From positions 1-38,221 of IMG/VR virus record IMGVR_UViG_3300033142_000225: a stretch of 38,221 bases of DNA, one strand, 5' to 3'. Positions 1,506 to 18,423 of this stretch are shown here, in pieces. Positions within the stretch are counted from its first letter, which is position 1, and every line of letters begins with the position of its first letter. Source of the stretch: a virus. The position numbers were made by a program, and so were the translations under genes. Below the pieces are notes generated by a model. That model was not told the origin of the DNA. It did no database searches and saw only the letters and a list, made by a program, of their open reading frames with translations.

Positions 1506-3116
1506 ATGAATCAATCTGGAGGATACTCACCAAAAGATCTGCACTTCGCGGACAAGGCACAAAAGAAATTACTTAATGGAATAACTAAGATGGCAAATGC
1601 TGTCAAGAGCACTTTAGGTCCGATGGGTCAGACTGTTCTTATAGAATCACCAGAGCATACTAATGGACTTACTGTTACTAAGGACGGAGTTACAGTTTCT
1701 AGGAGTATAAATTTACTAGACCCTGTTGAAAATCTTGCGGTACAGATGATGCGTCAGGCTGCTAACAATACTGCGAGTAGTGCTGGTGATGGAACTACAA
1801 CTGCTATTGTATTAGCTGAGGCCCTTTCTTATTATGGGTTTAGTCATATAGGTGATGATCAGAACAGAACGGAAGTTTTAAGGGAGATGTCTAATATCTC
1901 TAATGATATAATAAAAATATTAAAGAAGCAATCTCAGCCTGTAACAAATAAAAGGTTATTGGATGTTGCTACTATTTCTGCCAACAATGATAAGGAGGTG
2001 GGGAAGATAATATCGGACACTTATAAGAGTGTTGGAAATAATGGGGTTGTTACTGTAGAGAAATCTCAGGGATCTGAGACTACATTTGAAACCACAAATG
2101 GAATTAAGGTTGATCGCGGATTAGGTTCTCCGCTATTTATTAACGACCATAAAAAAGATGAGTGTGTATTGGAGGACTGTTATATATTAGTATCAGATTC
2201 TGATATAAATAATATATTAGATATAGAGACAGTTCTTAGACCTATCATCGCAGAAAAGAAAAAACTATTAATAATTGCGCCATGTTCTACTAATGTAGTA
2301 AACACACTTGCGGCTAATGTTCAGAAGAACGATCTTCAACTATGTCAAATAGTCCCTCCACAGTTTGGCTGGAAAAAGGAAGAGCTTCTAAATGATATAG
2401 CTTTAAGTGTAGGCGCAAATTATTTTTCTGCTTCTACCGGAGATGATCTTAGTATAATTAAGATGAGTGATTTGGGTAAAGCTTCAAAAGTTATTATAGG
2501 TAGAGATTCTACATTAATAATTAGAGACAGCGATCACGTTAATGATTCTGATATAAACGATAGGATATCTCAGTTAAAGGATTCTCATAAGATAGCAAAG
2601 ACAAAAGAAGATGGTGAGTTTATTCTTTCTCGAATAGCTTCACTTGCCGGAGGAATAGGAACTATAAGTGTTGGCGGTCAAACTGATCTTGAGCAAAAGG
2701 AATTATATGATAGAGTTGACGATGCCGTTTGCGCAGTACGTTCTGCTTTGGAGCAGGGGATTTTACCAGGTGGTGGAGTTGCTTTAGCCAATGCCGCTTT
2801 AGCTTTAGACCCTAACAAGTATAGTAGCGATTCTCAAAAGACAGCTTTAAATATATTAAGAGAGGCTCTTGTTACTCCAATCAAACAAATACATGAAAAT
2901 GCAGGGCGAGACCTCAACTTTGAAGAGTTTAAAGATCTACACTCTGGGCATGGTCAAAATATTAAGACAGGTCAGTTTGGAAATATGATAAAGATGGGTG
3001 TTATTGATCCTATGAAAGTAACGAGCTCAGCTTTACAGAATGCAGTTTCGGTAGCTACAACTATACTTTCTACCAATGCTATTGTAACTATGGCGAGAAC
3101 TTTTGAAGCAAAATAA
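1506..3116 (+). CDS. groEL: Phage-encoded chaperonin GroEL (Hsp60)
   Basis: This is a cytoplasmic ATP-driven folding chaperonin; group I members form 7-mer rings capped by GroES. The 536 residues span the whole family, close to the 548 of E. coli. ATP-site landmarks are visible: LGPMG (37-41), KDG (59-61), GDGTTTA (94-100), RVDDA with the catalytic Asp at 406, PGGG (421-424) and VIDP with Asp501. The apical domain (about 195-385) keeps the hydrophobic GSPLFIND helix-loop region. The C-terminus ends MARTFEAK, so the Gly-Gly-Met tail of cellular GroEL is missing. A short GroES lies 685 bases downstream in the same unit. The phage probably uses it to fold its own virion or replication proteins. 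Identity is very sure; the substrate is unknown. Confidence 0.97.
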   Translation: MNQSGGYSPKDLHFADKAQKKLLNGITKMANAVKSTLGPMGQTVLIESPEHTNGLTVTKDGVTVSRSINLLDPVENLAVQMMRQAANNTASSAGDGTTTAIVLAEALSYYGFSHIGDDQNRTEVLREMSNISNDIIKILKKQSQPVTNKRLLDVATISANNDKEVGKIISDTYKSVGNNGVVTVEKSQGSETTFETTNGIKVDRGLGSPLFINDHKKDECVLEDCYILVSDSDINNILDIETVLRPIIAEKKKLLIIAPCSTNVVNTLAANVQKNDLQLCQIVPPQFGWKKEELLNDIALSVGANYFSASTGDDLSIIKMSDLGKASKVIIGRDSTLIIRDSDHVNDSDINDRISQLKDSHKIAKTKEDGEFILSRIASLAGGIGTISVGGQTDLEQKELYDRVDDAVCAVRSALEQGILPGGGVALANAALALDPNKYSSDSQKTALNILREALVTPIKQIHENAGRDLNFEEFKDLHSGHGQNIKTGQFGNMIKMGVIDPMKVTSSALQNAVSVATTILSTNAIVTMARTFEAK

Positions 3117-3121
3117 ATATT

Positions 3122-3196
3122 ATGGGAATACAAGAGATAATAACTGTAATTGTTGTATGGGAATTTTTAAAATATGTATTTAAAAAAATACCTTGA
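3122..3196 (+). CDS. Tiny hydrophobic peptide, 24 aa
   Basis: An ATG five bases after the groEL stop opens a 24-codon frame, MGIQEIITVIVVWEF followed by LKYVFKKIP. It has a hydrophobic helix of about 12-14 residues and a basic end, like a single-pass membrane peptide. Its TGA (3194-3196) overlaps the TTG start of the next gene (3193-3195), which suggests translational coupling. It may be a real micropeptide or simply an upstream frame that delivers ribosomes to the next gene. Confidence 0.4.
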   Translation: MGIQEIITVIVVWEFLKYVFKKIP

Positions 3197-3447
3197 ATAA
3201 GTTCCTTAAAAGCTTAGTAAAAAATCGAAGGCTTACGCCTTTGGAGAGGATGGCTAATAGAATTGCTTATTCTGGCGCTGTCTTTATAATGATATCCCCT
3301 TATTTACTTCCGGATCCTATAGGAGCAATAACTTATGTGATAGGTGGATTATTGTCAATACCCCAGTGCTATTTAGCAAAACAATGGAATATTGTTATAG
3401 TAAATTTAAACGTTGTGTTTGGTTATTTAGTATATTTATACTTATGA
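3193..3447 (+). CDS. Small membrane protein, 84 aa, TTG start
   Basis: The frame starts at TTG, overlapping the stop of the 24-aa peptide; no in-frame ATG is available before residue 20 (MANRIAYSG). A basic N-terminus (MNKFLKSLVKNRRLTPLER) is followed by two or three hydrophobic segments (about 25-43, 46-60 and 66-84), so it is an inner-membrane protein with the N-terminus probably cytoplasmic. The stop overlaps the next ATG as ATGA (3444-3447). I do not recognise a family. Its place between groEL and groES may reflect co-regulation only. Confidence 0.6.
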   Translation: MNKFLKSLVKNRRLTPLERMANRIAYSGAVFIMISPYLLPDPIGAITYVIGGLLSIPQCYLAKQWNIVIVNLNVVFGYLVYLYL

Positions 3448-3791
3448 AAAAAGATCAAATAGTTGAGTTAGTTAAAAAAAAATTAGACTCTAGAAGTAAG
3501 CTAGGGATAGGAAAATATAACACCACTTTATTCGATAGCCCTGACGGCTTTTATGTATTTTTAAATCATTTACAGGAGGAGTTATTTGATGCCTCTCTTT
3601 ACATAGAGAAACTTAAGCAAATTAATTCTTCAGGGCATTCAGATAATGAAAGCATTAACGATATAAAAGTAAATCCTGAAATATTATCGGTCAGAAAGCC
3701 TTTAGACGCTGAAGGAAGTTGGAATTGTCTTTCATGCGGTAGATTGCATTCTAGCTATCTATCTGATTGTCAGGTATGTGGAAAAAAATAA
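3444..3791 (+). CDS. Zinc-ribbon protein, 115 aa, function unknown
   Basis: The start is taken at the ATG overlapping the previous stop, because upstream codons in this frame lie inside the membrane-protein gene. The N-terminus is basic (MKKDQIVELVKKKLDSRSK). A helix HLQEELFDASLYIEKL resembles the acidic EExxD helix of MazG-like nucleotide pyrophosphohydrolases, but no full MazG domain is present. The C-terminus holds CLSCG and CQVCG 15 residues apart, a CxxC...CxxC zinc ribbon ending in KK. It could bind nucleic acid or a protein partner. The MazG resemblance is weak and rests on one helix. Confidence 0.65.
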   Translation: MKKDQIVELVKKKLDSRSKLGIGKYNTTLFDSPDGFYVFLNHLQEELFDASLYIEKLKQINSSGHSDNESINDIKVNPEILSVRKPLDAEGSWNCLSCGRLHSSYLSDCQVCGKK

Positions 3792-3801
3792 AATTTAATT
3801 T

Positions 3802-4059
3802 ATGAAGCCAATAGGAAAAAATATAGTTATTAAGAGTATAGAGGAGGAAATAGTTACTGAAAGTGGACTACTACTTAGCGCGGATGATGCTAGTAATCTG
3901 AGATATAAAAAAGGATTGGTTGTAAAGCCAGGGACTGATGTAAACGTTATAAAAGAAAACGACTCTATATATTACGACAAAAGATCTGGTTATACTATGC
4001 TGATTGACGGAACGGCCTATACCATCATATCAGAGAATGATATTGTAGTGGTATTATAA
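3802..4059 (+). CDS. groES: Co-chaperonin GroES (Cpn10), short form
   Basis: This is the lid of the chaperonin cage, working with GroEL. The 85 residues (E. coli GroES has 97) follow the Cpn10 order: an N-terminal strand PIGKNIVIKSIEEE, a mobile-loop region ESGLLLSADD whose hydrophobic tripeptide matches the IVL that docks on GroEL, KGLVVKPG in place of GEVLAVG, NDSIYYDKRSGY for the VGDIVIF strand, and the C-terminal ENDIVVVL. The loop and roof are shortened. The same-strand location four genes after groEL supports the pairing. The 3' end overlaps the convergent regulator gene by six bases. Confidence 0.85.
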   Translation: MKPIGKNIVIKSIEEEIVTESGLLLSADDASNLRYKKGLVVKPGTDVNVIKENDSIYYDKRSGYTMLIDGTAYTIISENDIVVVL

Positions 4060-4542
4060 TTGATTATTTCTTTTACTAGCTCTCATTTTTCTAAGGTCTT
4101 TATTCATTTGAATAATAAAATTTTTATAAACCTTACTTTTAAAACTCACGTTCTTGTAGAAAATAGGGTTGTTCATTAGGGACTCAGGTATTTCTTCTCC
4201 GCTTAATTTTTTATAGATAGAATTAACCACGCGTTTTGTTTTGTAGGACACTTCGTAAAGAGCCTTACTTCCTCTCTTTCCGTTTCCTTGTCTCCAAGGT
4301 TCTATCCATTCTTCGTCTATAAGTTTTTTTAGCCTACCTTTATTCCAACTTAGTAGCTCATTAAATTCATTATATTTTTCATGTCCGAATATCTCTTCGT
4401 CATGTAAAAATAAAAGCATGTCTAATTCTCCGCTTGTCAGCTTGTATTTCTCTTGAACCCAAAACTTAATAACTCTCCAGTATTTTAAATAATTGGTTAT
4501 CATGGGCCTAGCCAAAGCCCTTTCCTCTGTCTGCCTGTTCAT
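4054..4542 (-). CDS. Winged-helix (MarR-like) transcriptional regulator
   Basis: This 162-aa basic protein is encoded leftward, opposite to every other gene from 797 on. The core has YWRVIKFWVQEKYKLTSGELDM (19-42, helix), LLFLHDEEIF (43-52), the recognition helix region FNELLSWNKGRLKKLIDEEW (60-79) and a wing IEPWRQG...ALYEVSYKTKRVV (80-106), followed by a dimer-type helix NSIYKKLSGEE. This order is that of MarR-like winged-helix proteins. The C-terminus is Lys/Arg-rich. It probably binds DNA and may control the divergent operon at 4587 and the upstream chaperonin unit. Its promoter overlaps that of the divergent operon. The exact family and targets are unproven. Confidence 0.7.
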   Translation of the reverse strand: MNRQTEERALARPMITNYLKYWRVIKFWVQEKYKLTSGELDMLLFLHDEEIFGHEKYNEFNELLSWNKGRLKKLIDEEWIEPWRQGNGKRGSKALYEVSYKTKRVVNSIYKKLSGEEIPESLMNNPIFYKNVSFKSKVYKNFIIQMNKDLRKMRASKRNNQL

Positions 4543-4767: not shown

Positions 4768-4968
4768 ATGGCAAAACAAAAAAAATATCCAGTAGGACAT
4801 CTTAAGTACGGAAATCAAGACACCTTGACTAAAAAAGAATATGATAATATATCATTTAAAAATAAATCTATAGATAAAATAAAATCGAATTCACCTAAGA
4901 GAATTATAAGTAGTGACGGTGAATTTGGAACTATATTCTTAAGTAAAAAACCTAAAATAAAAGCTTAA
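4768..4968 (+). CDS. Small lysine-rich protein, 66 aa
   Basis: Seven bases after the previous stop, this frame encodes MAKQKKYPVGHLKYGNQDTL and about 17 Lys in 66 residues, with no Cys. The high positive charge without a membrane segment suggests nucleic-acid or capsid-DNA contact. It is the first of a run of similar basic mini-proteins. No family is recognised. Confidence 0.65.
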   Translation: MAKQKKYPVGHLKYGNQDTLTKKEYDNISFKNKSIDKIKSNSPKRIISSDGEFGTIFLSKKPKIKA

Positions 4969-4971
4969 ATT

Positions 4972-5142
4972 ATGCCAACAGTAAAATACAAATGCCCAAA
5001 TAGCGGAACGATAAAATCAAAAACATTTCCTTATAATGCAGTGGGAAAAGCTCAAGCTCAAGAATTTGCAAGCACTATGCGGGGCTCAGTTAAAAACAAC
5101 CCTGGGTATGGAATGGAAAAGAAAATGAAGTCTAGCTATTAA
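4972..5142 (+). CDS. Small basic protein, 56 aa
   Basis: The frame opens at ATG three bases after the previous stop and ends at a TAA that overlaps the next ATG (TAATG). It starts MPTVKYKCPNSGTIKSKTFP and ends GYGMEKKMKSSY. One Cys sits in KCPNSG, like half of a zinc knuckle. It is basic and probably soluble. The function is unknown; membership in the cluster of basic phage mini-proteins is the main clue. Confidence 0.6.
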   Translation: MPTVKYKCPNSGTIKSKTFPYNAVGKAQAQEFASTMRGSVKNNPGYGMEKKMKSSY

Positions 5143-5297
5143 TGGCAAAGAGATTAAAAAAGAAAAGCAATAAAATTTGTCCATCAGGCATTGCTTGGGC
5201 TAAGCGTACTTTTGATAAGTACCCATCGGCCTATGCAAATATGGCTGCAAGCAAATATTGCAAAGACCCTAATTACGCTAAAAAAAGTAAGAAATGA
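5142..5297 (+). CDS. Small Lys/Cys protein with YPSAYAN motif, 51 aa
   Basis: TAATG coupling joins it to the gene before and ATGA to the gene after. It carries KICPSGIAWAKRTFDKYPSA followed by YANMAASKYCKDP: two Cys flank an aromatic YPSAYAN core, with Lys-rich ends. I recall this Cys...AKRxFxxYPSAYAN...CK pattern from many small proteins of aquatic phages, of unknown function. The two Cys could form a disulphide or join a metal site. A virion-associated role is inference. Confidence 0.7.
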   Translation: MAKRLKKKSNKICPSGIAWAKRTFDKYPSAYANMAASKYCKDPNYAKKSKK

Positions 5298-5416
5298 GTA
5301 AGCTAAGTAAAAAACAAAGAAAGATTGCTAAAGCTGCATACCCTTTAAATAAAATTACTGGAGCAGATTTTAAAGCTTTAAAAAAGAAGAATGGGAGAGC
5401 TAAAAAAATGGCGTGA
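5294..5416 (+). CDS. Very small lysine-rich protein, 40 aa
   Basis: Starts at ATGA overlapping the preceding stop. It begins MSKLSKKQRKIAKAAYPLNK and ends KKKNGRAKKMA, strongly basic (about one third Lys/Arg). It overlaps the next gene by 26 bases, unusual here but consistent with the tight packing. The overlap leaves some doubt, but the position, start type and composition match its neighbours. Confidence 0.55.
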   Translation: MSKLSKKQRKIAKAAYPLNKITGADFKALKKKNGRAKKMA

Positions 5417-5624
5417 TCAGAAGTGGGTTCGCATAGGAACTGACGGAAAGATTAAGGGTGCTTGTGGCACAAGTAAAAACAAAAAAAATCCCGACAGATG
5501 TCTTCCTTTAGCGAAAGCAAAACGTCTTAGTAAAAAAGCGTTAGCAGCAACAGCTAGAAAGAAAAAAGCTTCTGGGGGTAAAACTCAATTTATAAAAAAC
5601 ACTTCAACTGTAAGAAACGCATGA
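5391..5624 (+). CDS. Small basic Cys protein, DUF5872-like, 77 aa
   Basis: MGELKKWRDQKWVRIGTDGK is followed by IKGACGTSKNKKNPDRCLPL and a long Lys/Ala stretch ending VRNA. The W(V)xI...GxCGTSK...PxRCLP arrangement matches, from memory, the small DUF5872-type proteins of tailed phages and giant viruses. Two Cys flank a KNKKNPDR loop. About a quarter of the residues are Lys. The stop overlaps the next start as ATGA. The function is unknown; a DNA-binding or capsid-packed role is inference. Confidence 0.7.
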   Translation: MGELKKWRDQKWVRIGTDGKIKGACGTSKNKKNPDRCLPLAKAKRLSKKALAATARKKKASGGKTQFIKNTSTVRNA

Positions 5625-6088
5625 GCACAATACCGACTGGAACAAAATTTCATGGAGTAGCACCTGTAGTAGACACTGTAGATAAAGGGTCTGCTCTTGT
5701 AGACACATTAAGAGAGGCGTATACTATAGATGATATAGCTTCTTATACATACACAGGAACAACAGCTACTTTAGAACCTGAGTTTATGACAGTAACTCCA
5801 GGTGGAGCTTCTACTATAACAACTAAAAAGAATATTATAGACCTTACTTGGGTAGGAAGCTCAGGAACTCATACATTAACTTTACCTTCAGCGGCAGAGA
5901 TACCCTATCGTTTTTTAAGAATAGTAAATGATTCTACAATAGTAGCTTCAGACAAAGTTGATATTGCCGCTCCTGTTGGCGAAACAATTGATGGAGCTGC
6001 AACTTATGAAATAAACAAACCATATAATGGGGTTGCTGTTTGGTCTGACGGATCAAACTGGATAGTGATTCAAGCAAAATCAACATAA
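5621..6088 (+). CDS. Virion structural protein, fibre/head-spike type, 155 aa
   Basis: ATGA and TAATG overlaps join it to its neighbours. The N-terminus MSTIPTGTKFHGVAPVVDTV with KGSALVDTLREAYTIDDI resembles attachment segments of marine-phage virion proteins. The rest is Thr/Val/Gly-rich beta structure (TLEPEFMTVTPGGA..., HTLTLPSAAEIPYRFLRIVN) ending in AVWSDGSNWIVIQAKST, a frequent end of phage fibre proteins. No enzyme motif. It probably sits on the head or tail surface. Confidence 0.65.
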   Translation: MSTIPTGTKFHGVAPVVDTVDKGSALVDTLREAYTIDDIASYTYTGTTATLEPEFMTVTPGGASTITTKKNIIDLTWVGSSGTHTLTLPSAAEIPYRFLRIVNDSTIVASDKVDIAAPVGETIDGAATYEINKPYNGVAVWSDGSNWIVIQAKST

Positions 6089-6378
6089 TGGCCGATAAAA
6101 GTAAAATGAAATGTAATGTCGTTACTAAAAGCGACAGAGCTGGAAAAAAGAAAATGGTTAAGGCTTGTTCTGGAGGAAAAGAAAAGCTTATACATTTTGG
6201 GGCAAAAGGCTACGGTCATAATTATTCTGCTGCTGCTCGTAAATCTTTTCGGGCTAGACATAAATGTTCAACGGCAACTTCAAAACTTACCGCTAGGTAT
6301 TGGTCTTGTAAAAAATTATGGGCCGGAAAAGGGGGGTCAACCAAATCATCTCCTAAAAATATTAAAGGAAAATATTAG
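6088..6378 (+). CDS. Small basic protein with HFGAKG...ARH signature, 96 aa
   Basis: TAATG coupled. It contains KSDRAGKKKMVKAC, EKLIHFGAKGYGHNYS, AARKSFRARHKC and LTARYWSCKKLWAG. The order KSxxxGKK - HFGAKG - FRARHKC - YWxCxxLW recalls a family (DUF5754-like) shared by tailed phages and giant viruses, here with several Cys and His that could bind zinc. Its C-terminus is GKGGSTKSSPKNIKGKY, Lys/Gly-rich. The biochemical role is unknown. It closes the first part of the basic-protein cluster. Confidence 0.7.
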   Translation: MADKSKMKCNVVTKSDRAGKKKMVKACSGGKEKLIHFGAKGYGHNYSAAARKSFRARHKCSTATSKLTARYWSCKKLWAGKGGSTKSSPKNIKGKY

Positions 6379-6386
6379 TATCTTTG
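6379..6386 (+). promoter_or_regulatory. Promoter -7 element (TATCTTTG)
   Basis: An exact TAnnTTTG match starts directly after the stop at 6378, 22 bases before the ATG at 6409. No -33 TTG at 17-23 bases. It probably starts a new unit for the rest of the small genes and the virion surface genes. Confidence 0.6.
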
Positions 6387-6408
6387 TAGTCAACAAAAAG
6401 ACACAAAG

Positions 6409-6564
6409 ATGAAAAAGCAAGGTTACAATGCTCGTTTAGACGATTCTTTAGGAGCGAAGCACGGAAAAAAGTCTCAAAACTATAAGGCTAGAAGAGATGA
6501 ATCTAAAGGTATGATGAAGTACTTTGGGGAGCATCCTTACTCTAGTGATAAAGATATGAGCTAG
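6409..6564 (+). CDS. Small charged phage protein, 51 aa
   Basis: MKKQGYNARLDDSLGAKHGK with RRDESKGMMKYFG and HPYSSDKDMS. The GYNxRLDxSLG...SRRDESKGM...HPYSS order is one I recall from many small proteins of marine phages. It is soluble and carries both charges. It starts 22 bases after a TATCTTTG element. The function is unknown; it is often found next to virion genes. Confidence 0.7.
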   Translation: MKKQGYNARLDDSLGAKHGKKSQNYKARRDESKGMMKYFGEHPYSSDKDMS

Positions 6565-6567
6565 CAG

Positions 6568-6732
6568 ATGGCTAAAGATAAAAATTTTATTCAAAAAGTT
6601 TTTCAAGGAGCTAAAAAAAGAGGCACTCTAGGGGATTGTACTGGAAAAAAATACGGAAGTAAAAGTTGCCCGGTAGGATCAAAAAAATATAATTTCGCTA
6701 AAACAATGCGAAAAATAAATAAGTCTAAATGA
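6568..6732 (+). CDS. Small lysine-rich protein with two Cys, 54 aa
   Basis: The start is three bases after the previous stop, and the TGA overlaps the next ATG. MAKDKNFIQKVFQGAKKRGT is followed by LGDCTGKKYGSKSCPVGSKK. Two Cys ten residues apart flank GKKYGSKS. The basic charge and repeated neighbours suggest the same class as the genes at 4768-6378. No specific function is visible. Confidence 0.6.
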   Translation: MAKDKNFIQKVFQGAKKRGTLGDCTGKKYGSKSCPVGSKKYNFAKTMRKINKSK

Positions 6733-11223: not shown

Positions 11224-12186
11224 ATGAGCAATTTTACAGATTTTTTTCCCGCAGCTGAAGGCGGAGGCGGAGGAGCAATACCTGATCTAGTAGGTTTAGA
11301 ATATTTAATTTTAAGTGGAGGTGGCGCTGGCGGCGGCATATCTGGAGCAACTTACGGCGGCGGCGGCGGCGGTGGCGGTACATTGCTTAATGATTATTTT
11401 TACGCCAATAAAGACACTACTATACCAGTATTAGTAGGAGCTGGGGGAGCTTACTCAGGGGGAACTACCACGCCTGGTGGAAATTCTGAAATAGGAGTAG
11501 ATGTTAATAAAGTAACAATACTAGGCGGCGGCGGCGGAACATATAGCACAACGCCTACTACTGGAGGTACTTGCCTTGGAGGAAGAGGTGTGACCTCAGG
11601 TACAGGAAATACTCCGGGAGATATGGGATATGGTTTTAACCAAAAAGGCAAACAATTAGCAAGACTAAACGATACAGATTTAATTATAGCTGACACATCT
11701 ATAAATCAAACAACAGAGGCGTATCTTAATGGCCTTGTGGTTGGTAGAAGTGGTGGTGGAGCTGCAGGTTTAGGCGGCCCGGGCGTAAGTACAGGTAATT
11801 GGCAAACCGGCGGAACAGGAGGTATTGGATTAGACCCAACTACTGTAACATCTAGCTTTTTAACACAAGCTGAATTGCAAACAGAACTCATAGGCGAGGT
11901 AACCACCGGTATTTCTTACATAGGTGGCGGCGGCACGGGATATGGTGCAGTTGCAACTAATCCAAGAGCAAACCCGCCTGGAGGATGTGGTAGAGACACT
12001 GTAGATGCTTTAGCTAATACAGGCGGCGGCGGCGGCGGCCTCTCAAGTGGAGGATCAGGTTTTACTATGATTAGAGTTTTAACATCTCAATCTGTAACAA
12101 CTACAGGAACGCCCAGTACATATACTCAAGGAGCATATACAATATATGTATGGAAAAACACAGGTTCAATAACAATAAATTCTTAA
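11224..12186 (+). CDS. Glycine-rich tail adhesin, copy 1 (320 aa)
   Basis: MSNFTDFFPAAEGGGGGAIP starts a protein dominated by polyglycine runs (45-52, 101-105, 234-237, 267-272) between short beta segments such as LVGLEYLILSGGGAGGG and the C-terminal YTIYVWKNTGSITINS. This is like the polyglycine-sandwich adhesins of T-even-type phages (gp38) and the glycine-rich domain family of phage fibres. The ends match the paralogue at 12584, while residues about 122-180 differ strongly. GGC/GGA codon runs form trinucleotide repeats. The role is probably receptor recognition at the fibre tip. Confidence 0.75.
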   Translation: MSNFTDFFPAAEGGGGGAIPDLVGLEYLILSGGGAGGGISGATYGGGGGGGGTLLNDYFYANKDTTIPVLVGAGGAYSGGTTTPGGNSEIGVDVNKVTILGGGGGTYSTTPTTGGTCLGGRGVTSGTGNTPGDMGYGFNQKGKQLARLNDTDLIIADTSINQTTEAYLNGLVVGRSGGGAAGLGGPGVSTGNWQTGGTGGIGLDPTTVTSSFLTQAELQTELIGEVTTGISYIGGGGTGYGAVATNPRANPPGGCGRDTVDALANTGGGGGGLSSGGSGFTMIRVLTSQSVTTTGTPSTYTQGAYTIYVWKNTGSITINS

Positions 12187-12583: not shown

Positions 12584-13552
12584 ATGAGTAATTTTACAGA
12601 CTTCTTTCCTGCTGGCGGTGGAGCTGGCGGCGGTGCAATACCTGACTTAGTAGGTTTAGAGTATTTAATTCTAAGTGGAGGTGGCGCTGGCGGAGGTATA
12701 CCTGCAGCAAGTTATGGCGGCGGAGGCGGCGGCGGTGGAACGTACGATAATAATTATTTTTACACAGTAAAAGATGTTGTCACTCCTGTTGTAGTAGGCG
12801 CCGGAGGGGCTTGGGCGTCGGGAGCTACGACTCCTGGAGGAAGTGCCACAATAGGGTCTGGAATTAATCAAGCAGTTATCTTAGGTGGTGGAGGCGGAAC
12901 ATATAACTCAACGCCTACTACTGGAGGAACGTGCTCAGGCGGAAGGGGAAGGACAAGCAGTGGAACTACTACATCCAGCATAGGAAATGCTTTTGATGTA
13001 AGGGGTAGAGCGTTTGGATCTCTAGATGATGCCGCTATAATAGCAAGCCAAGCATTTATAAATAAATATACACAAGCATACAGGACTGGATCCCTTGGAG
13101 GAGCTTCTGCTGTTGGTGGCGCAGGTTTAGGGGGAGTTGGTCAGAACTTAGGAACTTATTGGCAACGTGGCGGAACAGGAGGTATTGGTGTTGATCCAAC
13201 ATCAGTAAATCCATCTTATGATTTTCTAACTCAAGCAGAGCTTCAAACAGAATTGATAGGTGAAGTTACTAATGGCATTACTTATATAGGTGGTGGAGGC
13301 ACTGGATATGGTGCGTCTATAACATTCCCAAGAGCAGACCCACCCGGAGGATGCGGTAGGGATACTGTAAATGCCTTAGCTAATACAGGTGGTGGAGGCG
13401 GAGGTCTCTCGAGTGGTGGCTCAGGCTTCACTATGATTAAAGTTCCAAACTCATTATCTGTAACAACTACAGGAACGCCTAGTACCTATGTTAGGACCTC
13501 GTTTACAATTTACGTGTGGAAAAACACGGGTTCGATAATAATAAATTCTTAA
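12584..13552 (+). CDS. Glycine-rich tail adhesin, copy 2 (322 aa)
   Basis: Paralogue of the protein at 11224. The N-terminal 50 residues (MSNFTDFFPAGGGAGGGAIP...) and the C-terminal 100 residues (LTQAELQTELIGEVTNGITY, then PGGCGRDTVNALANTGGGGG) are nearly the same, while the centre (about 122-185: RTSSGTTTSSIGNAFDVRGR and on) is different in sequence. The polyglycine-sandwich layout is kept. The two copies probably give two receptor specificities or hetero-oligomeric tips. The DNA repeats could recombine across the 122-aa gene in between. Confidence 0.75.
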   Translation: MSNFTDFFPAGGGAGGGAIPDLVGLEYLILSGGGAGGGIPAASYGGGGGGGGTYDNNYFYTVKDVVTPVVVGAGGAWASGATTPGGSATIGSGINQAVILGGGGGTYNSTPTTGGTCSGGRGRTSSGTTTSSIGNAFDVRGRAFGSLDDAAIIASQAFINKYTQAYRTGSLGGASAVGGAGLGGVGQNLGTYWQRGGTGGIGVDPTSVNPSYDFLTQAELQTELIGEVTNGITYIGGGGTGYGASITFPRADPPGGCGRDTVNALANTGGGGGGLSSGGSGFTMIKVPNSLSVTTTGTPSTYVRTSFTIYVWKNTGSIIINS

Positions 13553-15184: not shown

Positions 15185-15358
15185 ATGAATACAGGAGAAT
15201 TACTAGATGAGTTTAATATGTTGACTGAAAAAAAGAAAAAAACTTCTGATTGGATGGAGTCTCTTGAAATTCAAGACAGAATTCATCAGATTGAAATGAA
15301 ACTTAATAATGTAAAGCCTACTGACTCTTCTGTTGATTGCGAGGGGTGTGGATCATAA
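15185..15358 (+). CDS. Small protein ending in CxxCGS, 57 aa
   Basis: MNTGELLDEFNMLTEKKKKT is followed by a helix SDWMESLEIQDRIHQIEMKL and the end DCEGCGS. The CxGCGS tail closes many small helical proteins at this place in marine-phage genomes. It may be a dimeric coiled coil with a Cys pair. It starts three bases after the previous stop and ends two bases before the next gene. The function is unknown. Confidence 0.65.
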   Translation: MNTGELLDEFNMLTEKKKKTSDWMESLEIQDRIHQIEMKLNNVKPTDSSVDCEGCGS

Positions 15359-15360
15359 TC

Positions 15361-15924
15361 ATGAGATCTCCATTTTTTTTTATAGCTAAGCCCTTAGAGG
15401 GGAAGCGATATAACAACACTAAGGAGGTTTCGGGGATAGAATTAATCACTAGTACTTCAGAGGAAAATCATTTAGCCTCAAACAGGATGGCTGTTGTTGA
15501 GTCTACTCCTATAGGCTATAACGGACCTATACAGAAAGGAGATACTCTTTTGGTTCATCATAATGTATTTAAGTTTTATAATGACATGAAGGGCAGGAAG
15601 AAAAGTGGCAAAAGTTTTTTTAAAGATGATTTGTTTTTTATAGAAAACGATCAGTTCTATATGTATAAACACAATGATCATTGGAGTTGTCACGACAGGT
15701 ATTGTTTTGTAGAGCCAATTCCCAAAGAAGATTCTTTCTTATACAAAAACTTTAGGAATGAACCTTTAATAGGAATAATGAAATACTCAAATGAGTATTT
15801 AAAATCTAAAGGAATAAACTCTGGGGATAAAATATGCTTTAAGCCTGAAAGTGAATATCAGTTTGAAGTTGATGGCAAAAAACTTTATAGGATGTTTGAT
15901 CATCAAATAACCTTGAAATTATGA
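15361..15924 (+). CDS. Possible tandem GroES-like protein, 187 aa
   Basis: The start is the ATG at 15361; an upstream TTG would add eight poor residues and overlap the previous gene. The first half follows a Cpn10-like order: FFFIAKPLEGKRYNNTK, then a loop SGIELITSTSEENHLASNRM, AVVESTPIG, KGDTLLVHHNVFKFY, and a long insert before FFIENDQFYMYK. The second half repeats parts of it (RYCFVEPIP, PLIGIMKY, INSGDKICFKPESEYQF, MFDHQITLKL). SGIEL corresponds to the GGIVL mobile loop and KGDTLLVH to VGDIVIF. This suggests two linked GroES-like folds, as a co-chaperonin or virion protein. The assignment is inference; no enzyme motif is seen. Confidence 0.5.
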   Translation: MRSPFFFIAKPLEGKRYNNTKEVSGIELITSTSEENHLASNRMAVVESTPIGYNGPIQKGDTLLVHHNVFKFYNDMKGRKKSGKSFFKDDLFFIENDQFYMYKHNDHWSCHDRYCFVEPIPKEDSFLYKNFRNEPLIGIMKYSNEYLKSKGINSGDKICFKPESEYQFEVDGKKLYRMFDHQITLKL

Positions 15925-16199
15925 AATCTGAAGAATTAAAGATAAAAATAATAAGCGCCGGTAAAAAAGCTGTTGAGCAGTTAATAAAAGTAGCTAAAGA
16001 GGATATAATAAAACATGATCCTGAAGATGAACTTGCCGCAGATAGATTAAAGAATGCTGCTGCTACAAAGAAGTTAGCTATATTTGATGCTTTCGATATA
16101 TTAAATAAGATTGATTTAGAACAGGAAAATTTAAACTTATCTTCACAGCCTAACGTTACTAAAACAAAACAAGGATTTGCAGAAAGAAGATCAAAATAA
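15921..16199 (+). CDS. Putative terminase small subunit, 92 aa
   Basis: ATGA-coupled to the gene before, and overlapping the large terminase by 23 bases. It is mostly helical and charged: MKSEELKIKIISAGKKAVEQ, AKEDIIKHDPEDELAADRLK, NAAATKKLAIFDAFDILNKI, with a Lys/Arg-rich end GFAERRSK. Small terminases are short helical DNA-binding proteins encoded just before the large subunit; this is the main argument. No classical helix-turn-helix is evident, so the call rests on position and size. Confidence 0.5.
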   Translation: MKSEELKIKIISAGKKAVEQLIKVAKEDIIKHDPEDELAADRLKNAAATKKLAIFDAFDILNKIDLEQENLNLSSQPNVTKTKQGFAERRSK

Positions 16200-18423
16200 A
16201 TTATACGAGAAAATTTTTAATGTTGTCCCTAGTGGTGTTTTAAAGAAAAAAAACAAAGCTAAGACTTGGCTTTACGGGTATAACGAAAAATACGATATAG
16301 TTGTTATTTCTAAAACTGGTCAAATAGAGGATATCATATGTATTAATGATGTTCGTATAGCTCTACCTAAGATACCGGATAAAATTTATCAAAGAAGTAA
16401 AAATAAAAAAGAGCAATACTGGGAAAGACATTCTCTTCCTAAAGATCTTACGAAAATCTCCTCTATATTTCATTGGAATGAAATGCCTGATAATTTTAAA
16501 TCTAATTGGGTTGATTATATTGAAGGTGAATTTGATAATAGAGATTTAGGTTTTTGGTTTTATAACAATGGAGCCCCTACATATATAACAGGCTCTCATT
16601 ATATGTATCTTCAATGGACTAGTATTGATGTAGGTTATCCTGATTTTAGAGAAGCTAATAGGATTTTCTTTTTATACTGGGAAGCGTGCAAAGCGGATAA
16701 CAGGTGTTTTGGTATGGACTATTTAAAAATACGAAGATCTGGATTTTCTTTTATGGGCTCTTCTGAATGTGTGAATACAGGTTCTTTAGCGAAAGATTCT
16801 AGAGTTGGAATACTTTCTAAAACCGGTTCTGATGCTAAAAAAATGTTTACCGACAAGGTAGTTCCTATATCAACTAGACTTCCTTTCTTTTTTAAACCCA
16901 TACAAGACGGTATGGATAAGCCTAAAACTGAATTAGCATTTAGAATTCCTGCATCTAAAATAACTAAAAAAAACATGTATGATGTAGTGGATGATGAGTT
17001 ATATGGATTAGACACAACTATTGATTGGAAGAATACAGACGATAACTCCTATGATGGAGAAAAATTACTTTTACTAGTTCACGATGAATCAGGAAAGTGG
17101 GTAAAACCTAATAATATTTTAAATAATTGGAGGGTTACAAAAACTTGCTTGAGGTTGGGGAGTAAAATTATAGGCAAATGTCTAATGGGGTCTACCTCTA
17201 ACTCACTTAGTAAGGGAGGTGATAATTTTAAAAAACTCTACGAAGATTCTAATCCAAAAGAAAGGAATGCTAATGGTCAAACTAAAAGCGGAATGTACTC
17301 TTTATTTATACCTATGGAGTGGAATATGGAGGGGTTTATAGACCTTTATGGAATGCCTGTTTTTTATAAGCCCGAAAAACCTATAATGGGTGTTGATGGT
17401 GAAAAAATAATTAATGGAGCTATAGATTATTGGGAGGCTGAAGTAGATTCTTTAAAGAAGGACGCTGATGCTTTAAATGAATTTTATAGACAATTTCCTC
17501 GAACAGAGTCTCATGCTTTTAGAGATGAAAGTAAATCGTCTTTATTTAATCTAACTAAAATATATCAACAAATAGATTACAATGACTCTTTGATAATGGA
17601 GCATCATGTAACTAGAGGTAGGTTTTATTGGAAGAACGGAGTAAAAGACAGTGAGGTCATTTGGACTCCAGATTCTAGAGGAAGATTTAGGGTTTCTTGG
17701 ACTCCAAAAAAAGGAATGAATAATAATTTATACTCTAAGAATGGAGTTTACTATCCTGGAAATGAGCACATTGGAGCTTTTGGTTGTGACTCTTATGATA
17801 TATCCGGGACTGTTGGAGGCCGAGGGTCTAATGGAGCGCTGCACGGAATGACTAAGTTTAACATGGATGATGCTCCAAGTAGTGAATTCTTTTTAGAATA
17901 TGTAGCCAGGCCACAAACTGCTGAGATATTTTTTGAAGAAGTTTTAATGGCGTGTGTATTTTATGGAATGCCTATACTTGTTGAAAATAATAAACCTAGA
18001 TTATTATATCACTTTAAGAATAGGGGGTATAGAGGCTTTAGTATGAATCGTCCAGATAAGCACTATAATAAGTTGTCGAAGACTGAGCGTGAATTAGGGG
18101 GGATACCTAACACTTCTGAAGATGTGAAACAATCTCATGCCGCTGCAATAGAATCTTACATAGAGAAGCATATAGGAATAGATTTAGATGCAACGTACAG
18201 GGATCCGGATGAGATGGGCAGTATGTACTTTGCTAGAACTTTAGAAGATTGGGCAAAATTCGATATAAACAATAGAACTAAATTTGACGCAAGTATAAGC
18301 TCGGGATTAGCTATAATGGCTAATCAAAAAAATGTTTATTTGCCTGAGCAAAAACAAACAAAAATAAGTCTTAACTTTGCAAGATATAATAATAAAGGAT
18401 CTTTAAGCGAATTAATTAGATGA
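16177..18423 (+). CDS. terL: Terminase large subunit (ATPase-nuclease)
   Basis: Packaging motor of 748 residues. The start is TTG at 16177 inside the previous gene; the first in-frame ATG (Met103) would remove about 100 residues. ATPase landmarks are RRSGF (186-190, in the Walker A region), LLLLVHDE with D303-E304 (Walker B) and the coupling motif MGSTS (337-341). Nuclease acidic residues are seen in FGCDSYD (D538), LVEN (E603) and KFDASISSG (D704), matching the RNase H-like metal site. It acts with the portal encoded directly downstream (ATGA overlap) to cut and pump DNA into the head. Confidence 0.93.
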   Translation: MQKEDQNKLYEKIFNVVPSGVLKKKNKAKTWLYGYNEKYDIVVISKTGQIEDIICINDVRIALPKIPDKIYQRSKNKKEQYWERHSLPKDLTKISSIFHWNEMPDNFKSNWVDYIEGEFDNRDLGFWFYNNGAPTYITGSHYMYLQWTSIDVGYPDFREANRIFFLYWEACKADNRCFGMDYLKIRRSGFSFMGSSECVNTGSLAKDSRVGILSKTGSDAKKMFTDKVVPISTRLPFFFKPIQDGMDKPKTELAFRIPASKITKKNMYDVVDDELYGLDTTIDWKNTDDNSYDGEKLLLLVHDESGKWVKPNNILNNWRVTKTCLRLGSKIIGKCLMGSTSNSLSKGGDNFKKLYEDSNPKERNANGQTKSGMYSLFIPMEWNMEGFIDLYGMPVFYKPEKPIMGVDGEKIINGAIDYWEAEVDSLKKDADALNEFYRQFPRTESHAFRDESKSSLFNLTKIYQQIDYNDSLIMEHHVTRGRFYWKNGVKDSEVIWTPDSRGRFRVSWTPKKGMNNNLYSKNGVYYPGNEHIGAFGCDSYDISGTVGGRGSNGALHGMTKFNMDDAPSSEFFLEYVARPQTAEIFFEEVLMACVFYGMPILVENNKPRLLYHFKNRGYRGFSMNRPDKHYNKLSKTERELGGIPNTSEDVKQSHAAAIESYIEKHIGIDLDATYRDPDEMGSMYFARTLEDWAKFDINNRTKFDASISSGLAIMANQKNVYLPEQKQTKISLNFARYNNKGSLSELIR

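Follow-up and report, generated by a model that had tools for sequence, protein, structure and literature searches.

Viral GroEL/GroES pairs are already known. GroEL is encoded in 36 genomes of the Flavobacteriaceae phage 'group 2' (PMC5332604), both subunits have been described in Maribacter phage Panino (PMC11590407), the annotation of Cellulophaga phage phi38:1 includes the pair, and Marine et al. 2017, as represented in papers citing it, linked subunit gene order to GroEL phylogeny among virioplankton chaperonins. The phi38:1 GroEL, gp054, has been detected in infected cells, where it is reportedly methylated, and in free virions (PMC13288928). Phage T4 supplies gp31, a roofless GroES fold that works with host GroEL; its mobile loop measures 22 residues versus 16 in GroES, and its roof loss is believed to aid folding of the large capsid protein gp23 (PMC6318259). 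The phage-encoded Cpn60 chaperonins of phages EL (gp146), OBP (gp246) and AR9 (gp228) function without any co-chaperonin (PMC9598537).

We analyzed a 38,221-base fragment of an aquatic virus genome, IMG/VR virus record IMGVR_UViG_3300033142_000225, referred to throughout as the window. Its chaperonin locus comprises four genes:

1506 to 3116, plus strand: groEL (Cpn60), 536 aa; PF00118 3.2e-59, 201 bits; phrog_5725 1.2e-131
3193 to 3447, plus strand: hydrophobic frame of 84 aa with a TTG start; homologue found solely in L003, a near-identical contig
3444 to 3791, plus strand: zinc-ribbon protein of 115 aa, CxxC...CxxC at its C end; weak PHROG matches, function unassigned in PHROG
3802 to 4059, plus strand: groES (Cpn10), 85 aa; PF00166 8.1e-13, 48.7 bits (cut-off 21.1); phrog_3188

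The original prediction, made by inspection of the window, was of a full-length GroEL with an intact ATP site and an 85-aa GroES on the same strand, and searches with PF00118 and PF00166 confirm both genes. The GroEL covers PF00118 positions 2-488 of 490, aligns end to end with E. coli GroEL, and contains equatorial, intermediate and apical parts together with the motifs GDGTTTA, RVDDA and PGGG. With E. coli GroEL-GroES the pair has in common the Cpn60 and Cpn10 domains, the ATPase residues and the mobile loop; it differs in its reversed gene order, absent GGM tail, altered groove positions 234, 263 and 264, non-conserved ring-ring contacts and missing GroES roof hairpin. The groEL-groES order is that of the Flavobacterium elemoviruses and Panino, unlike that of Cellulophaga phages phi38:1 and Calle, in which groES is followed by an ORF and then groEL. 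The window GroEL is only about 35-37% identical to the elemovirus and phi38:1/Calle proteins, and the window differs from known aquatic phage pairs in having two extra genes between groEL and groES.

Two small membrane frames and a zinc-ribbon protein had been proposed to separate the pair; the zinc-ribbon protein stands, but the hydrophobic frames number one, not two. The zinc-ribbon protein has one clear homologue beyond L003 (L196, 4e-12). The idea that these intervening genes belong to the chaperonin unit was rejected for want of conservation in the family described below; by sequence comparison, the two are a lineage-specific insertion.

The phage family to which the window belongs is marked by its terminase large subunit (TerL):

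16177 to 18423, plus strand: TerL; phrog_6681 3e-182

TerL identity across family records is 62-100%. The nearest named record, Podoviridae sp. ctfjg026 (MW202828; 60,850 bases, circular), carries adjacent groEL and groES in the same order as the window, with 56% (GroEL), 52% (GroES) and 77% (TerL) identity. At 33-46% identity, the TerL relatives belong to phages whose hosts are Flavobacterium, Cellulophaga, Maribacter and Tenacibaculum, which makes a flavobacterial host likely for this roughly 60-kb phage family. Those in culture grow on Flavobacterium, Cellulophaga and Maribacter, and annotated GroEL/GroES pairs are present in several of them. TerL homologues occur in elemovirus, Panino, phi38:1 and phi19:3, and linked groEL and groES in elemovirus, phi38:1, Calle and Panino.

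Several neighboring genes were also recorded. A convergent gene of 162 aa on the minus strand (4054-4542; phrog_17028) overlaps the groES end by 6 bases, and the MW202828 gene at the equivalent spot beside groES is annotated 'repressor protein'. On the plus strand, a series of small ORFs of about 40-98 aa, very rich in lysine and in some cases carrying several Cys, occupies 4768-6732, and two proteins of the Gly_rich_2 type (PF21722), 320 and 322 aa long, lie at 11224-12186 and 12584-13552, the former with a weak match to a tail-fibre PHROG.

Phage GroEL had been thought uncommon and a complete pair rarer still; neither expectation is supported here: GroEL turns up by tblastn in 247 records of phages, and the pair is universal in the family wherever the contig reaches. 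Briefly, 80 groEL loci fetched from IMG/VR, together with the window locus and MW202828, divide into 67 family loci and 15 distant ones. Of the 67, 64 have a co-directional groES downstream of groEL; L056, L062 and L065, which make up the remainder, all break off inside groEL. Spacing ranges from overlapping to 2.1 kb downstream; the genes overlap or stand no more than 10 bp apart in 26 of the 64 pairs, a spacing that suggests coupled translation. A sample of 14 larger contigs seeded with TerL, and so independent of GroEL, contains groEL in seven (in one case in two frames), namely all seven that reach far enough upstream. The remaining seven end before the groEL position upstream of TerL, L130 stopping beside groES. 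Finally, in all 32 records compared, MW202828 included, groEL runs in the same direction as TerL.

On the contig of L124, GroEL is divided between two frames (L199 and L200) that overlap at profile positions 301-329; a frameshift, an assembly error and a real break are the candidates. A search for a Bacteroidetes-type promoter motif upstream of groEL found none, the window counts lying near the shuffled expectation. The distant loci (36-38% identity, L067-L081) at first scored as lacking GroES, a sensitivity artefact of querying with the window GroES, which missed it. A Cpn10 profile recovers GroES in most of the checked contigs of this group, upstream of groEL in the four examined.

A host groESL operon captured recently, named in the original prediction as the contrary outcome, would explain the pair by transfer from a bacterium. 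The Bacteroidota, the probable host phylum, carry groESL, and the best PDB match of the window GroEL is an ancestral Bacteroidetes-group chaperonin. Against capture, identity to cellular GroELs peaks at 39%, with best matches scattered over many phyla. In a GroEL tree of 68 rows, built by a quick method and with an unsure placement of the long-branched cultured relatives, the family forms one clade (support 100) outside all 35 cellular rows (98). Every family pair reads groEL-groES, the reverse of bacterial groES-groEL; where groES was found at cellular loci it precedes groEL, with one Omnitrophota locus (L239) the sole exception. Finally, GC content is in line with the remainder of the contig. 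On tree, identity, gene order and composition together we reject recent host capture, to which we give almost no credence.

Inheritance with the phage is instead indicated by the covariation of distances. GroEL, GroES and TerL distances are correlated (r 0.70-0.81, 0 of 2000 permutations as high; GroEL-GroES given TerL, 0.52), and inclusion of a second, tandem GroES-like protein described below, across 28 genomes, yields r 0.70-0.86, again with 0 of 2000 permutations as high; the pair was therefore inherited with the phage. The GroEL-GroES correlation was also considered as proof of co-adaptation and set aside: it is no stronger than that between GroEL and TerL, and so reflects shared inheritance. 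Groove residue 263 (A to N) and the GroES tripeptide (LLL to LIM) change together in only two contig groups, and this covariation was likewise rejected as too weak. GroEL and GroES are intact, inherited with phage core genes and carried on the virion-gene strand.

The GroEL apical groove is altered across the family. Residues were mapped in E. coli numbering and compared with 79 cellular GroELs. D52, D87, D398 and D495, the residues of ATP binding and hydrolysis, are retained in all 59 family members counted besides the window (GroEL above 500 aa), a set that includes near-duplicate contigs, so that 59 is not a number of independent events. Position 234, within a stretch (228-244) that aligns without gaps, is E in 59 of 59 family members and in 0 of 79 cellular GroELs, all 79 of which carry L, I, V or M, the cellular sample being the best 80 matches to the query and hence non-random and biased towards likeness to the phage protein. 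Position 263 changes from V to A, N or S in every member (59/59), 264 from V to A in 52 of 59 and 203 from Y to L in 45 of 59; F204 and L237 are unchanged in all 59. The window itself carries L234E, V263A and V264A. L234E is common to the window's clade and Panino, whereas elemovirus GroEL has L and phi38:1 GroEL has A at this position. The GGM tail, correctly predicted to be lacking from the window, is missing from the inspected family members as well, and the distant phage GroEL group often has a Met-rich tail.

In the crystal structure, the GroES IVL sits on GroEL L234, L237 and V264 (PMC3514286). Judged by alignment, the GroES-contacting groove has been rewritten family-wide while the ATPase residues are invariant. 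In E. coli GroEL, L234E belongs to the substitutions that compromise the binding of polypeptide and of GroES, and it could accordingly signify weakened instead of retuned binding.

The GroES of the window departs from its cellular counterparts at a different point from the one anticipated. The sequence ESGLLLSADD had been read as a shortened mobile loop. It is present, but profile and pairwise alignments contradict the shortening: the loop is complete with its SGLLL tripeptide motif, being one residue shorter than in E. coli ahead of the hydrophobic tripeptide and at least two longer behind it, and about 9-11 residues are lost from the roof hairpin instead. The proposal of a complete two-part phage system showing signs of specialisation is supported by a rewritten groove with a preserved ATPase, and loses the shortened loop as evidence. 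An AF2 model (pLDDT 88.5) likewise lacks the hairpin at the roof (E35-42, then loop to E55-59), and all 29 PDB matches below 1e-3 are Cpn10/GroES, with T4 gp31 (1g31), itself phage-encoded and roofless, among the structural matches. Some bacterial GroES proteins (L217, Nitrospirae; L222, Sulfurovum) are roofless too, so roof loss is not a phage-specific adaptation; the missing hairpin is compatible with GroES/Cpn10 membership, as not every member of that protein family has one.

A phage GroEL might act lidless, as in phages EL, OBP and AR9, leaving GroES with a different job. Those chaperonins need no co-chaperonin (PMC9598537), and the ring-ring contact residues R452, E461, S463, V464 and A109, non-conserved across the family, would fit an altered or single ring. 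The relationship is distant, however, the phage EL chaperonin being about 28% identical to the window GroEL over 79% of the query and that of AR9 23%, and GroES, whose SG-hydrophobic loop has an invariant G22, stands beside GroEL throughout the family. We consider a lidless chaperonin very improbable.

The window also encodes a second candidate co-chaperonin near TerL:

15361 to 15924, plus strand: tandem GroES-like (Cpn20-like) protein of 187 aa; phrog_13932 'co-chaperonin GroES' 2.9e-20

Its ORF opens at 15337 with TTG and lies upstream of a 92-aa ORF that is followed by TerL. The protein is conserved in about 110 ORFs, mostly from TerL loci, and copies in relatives are already annotated as GroES; within the literature covered, which is incomplete, no publication treating the tandem form was found. 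The AF2 model (pLDDT 92.5) has chloroplast Cpn20 (7ekq_R) as its top PDB match, over both halves, at 12% sequence identity. The second half matches cellular GroES with an hhalign probability of 93.5, and the first half, with no sequence match to cellular GroES, resembles it only by predicted fold. The first-half loop carries E/D within its hydrophobic stretch, and the loop motif is absent from the second half. As modelled, the protein is thus a candidate co-chaperonin.

These lids bear on the possibility of a mixed machine, in which the phage GroES or the tandem protein caps host GroEL, and phage GroEL is separate or supplementary and served by host GroES. Phage phi19:3 encodes a GroES and a tandem GroES-like protein, and a PF00118 search found no GroEL in it; given that these genes are kept without GroEL, its lid must use host GroEL or act otherwise. 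The window GroES loop retains the G-hydrophobic-hydrophobic-L pattern of bacterial loops, and T4 gp31 provides the precedent (PMC6318259), although the window's phage, unlike T4, encodes its own GroEL. In phage Gundel_1 neither GroEL nor GroES was found. Set against a mixed machine are the constant joint presence of GroEL and GroES in the window's family where the contig permits, and a groove whose contact residues 234, 263 and 264 depart from the host type. We judge it unlikely, while giving it more weight than a lidless chaperonin.

We favor, with a probability of roughly 0.6, a self-matched, late-expressed phage GroEL/GroES pair that folds a virion protein independently of host GroEL/ES. 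The pair would be expressed late, and the phage GroEL ring would use ATP in the usual way. The roofless phage GroES would cap phage GroEL by seating its full-length mobile loop in the altered groove, and the same groove would exclude host GroES and, probably, the majority of host substrates. The resulting wider, open-topped cage may fold a single bulky virion protein or a small number of them, most likely the major capsid or another structural protein, and virion assembly would thereby become independent of host GroEL/ES. For a relative, phi38:1, expression is supported by the detection of its GroEL both in infected cells and in virions.

The altered groove would also fit a changed client set, and the pair might then mainly serve host proteins, keeping host enzymes folded or disturbing a host chaperone or defence step. 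The invariable location of groEL on the terminase and virion-gene strand (32/32 records) and the recovery of a relative's GroEL with free virions (PMC13288928) argue otherwise, and we hold this role to be improbable. A self-matched pair folding virion proteins could also be one portion of a three-part, host-independent system, in which a groove rebuilt around the fixed acidic E234 takes only its own roofless GroES and a few virion clients, possibly in a single ring, and a Cpn20-like co-chaperonin encoded beside the terminase caps either the phage or the host GroEL at a different step of assembly; we offer this extension as speculative and rather doubtful.

In the literature covered, itself incomplete, we found no earlier description of the fixed groove change or of the tandem co-chaperonin. 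What might have been viewed as a rare curiosity is conserved in a widespread group of phages whose relatives in culture include the elemoviruses, Panino and phi38:1, so that the substrates of viral chaperonins become testable in a laboratory host. The fixed L234E predicts a chaperonin without cross-reaction with host GroES, a prediction that bears on how chaperonin/co-chaperonin specificity evolves.
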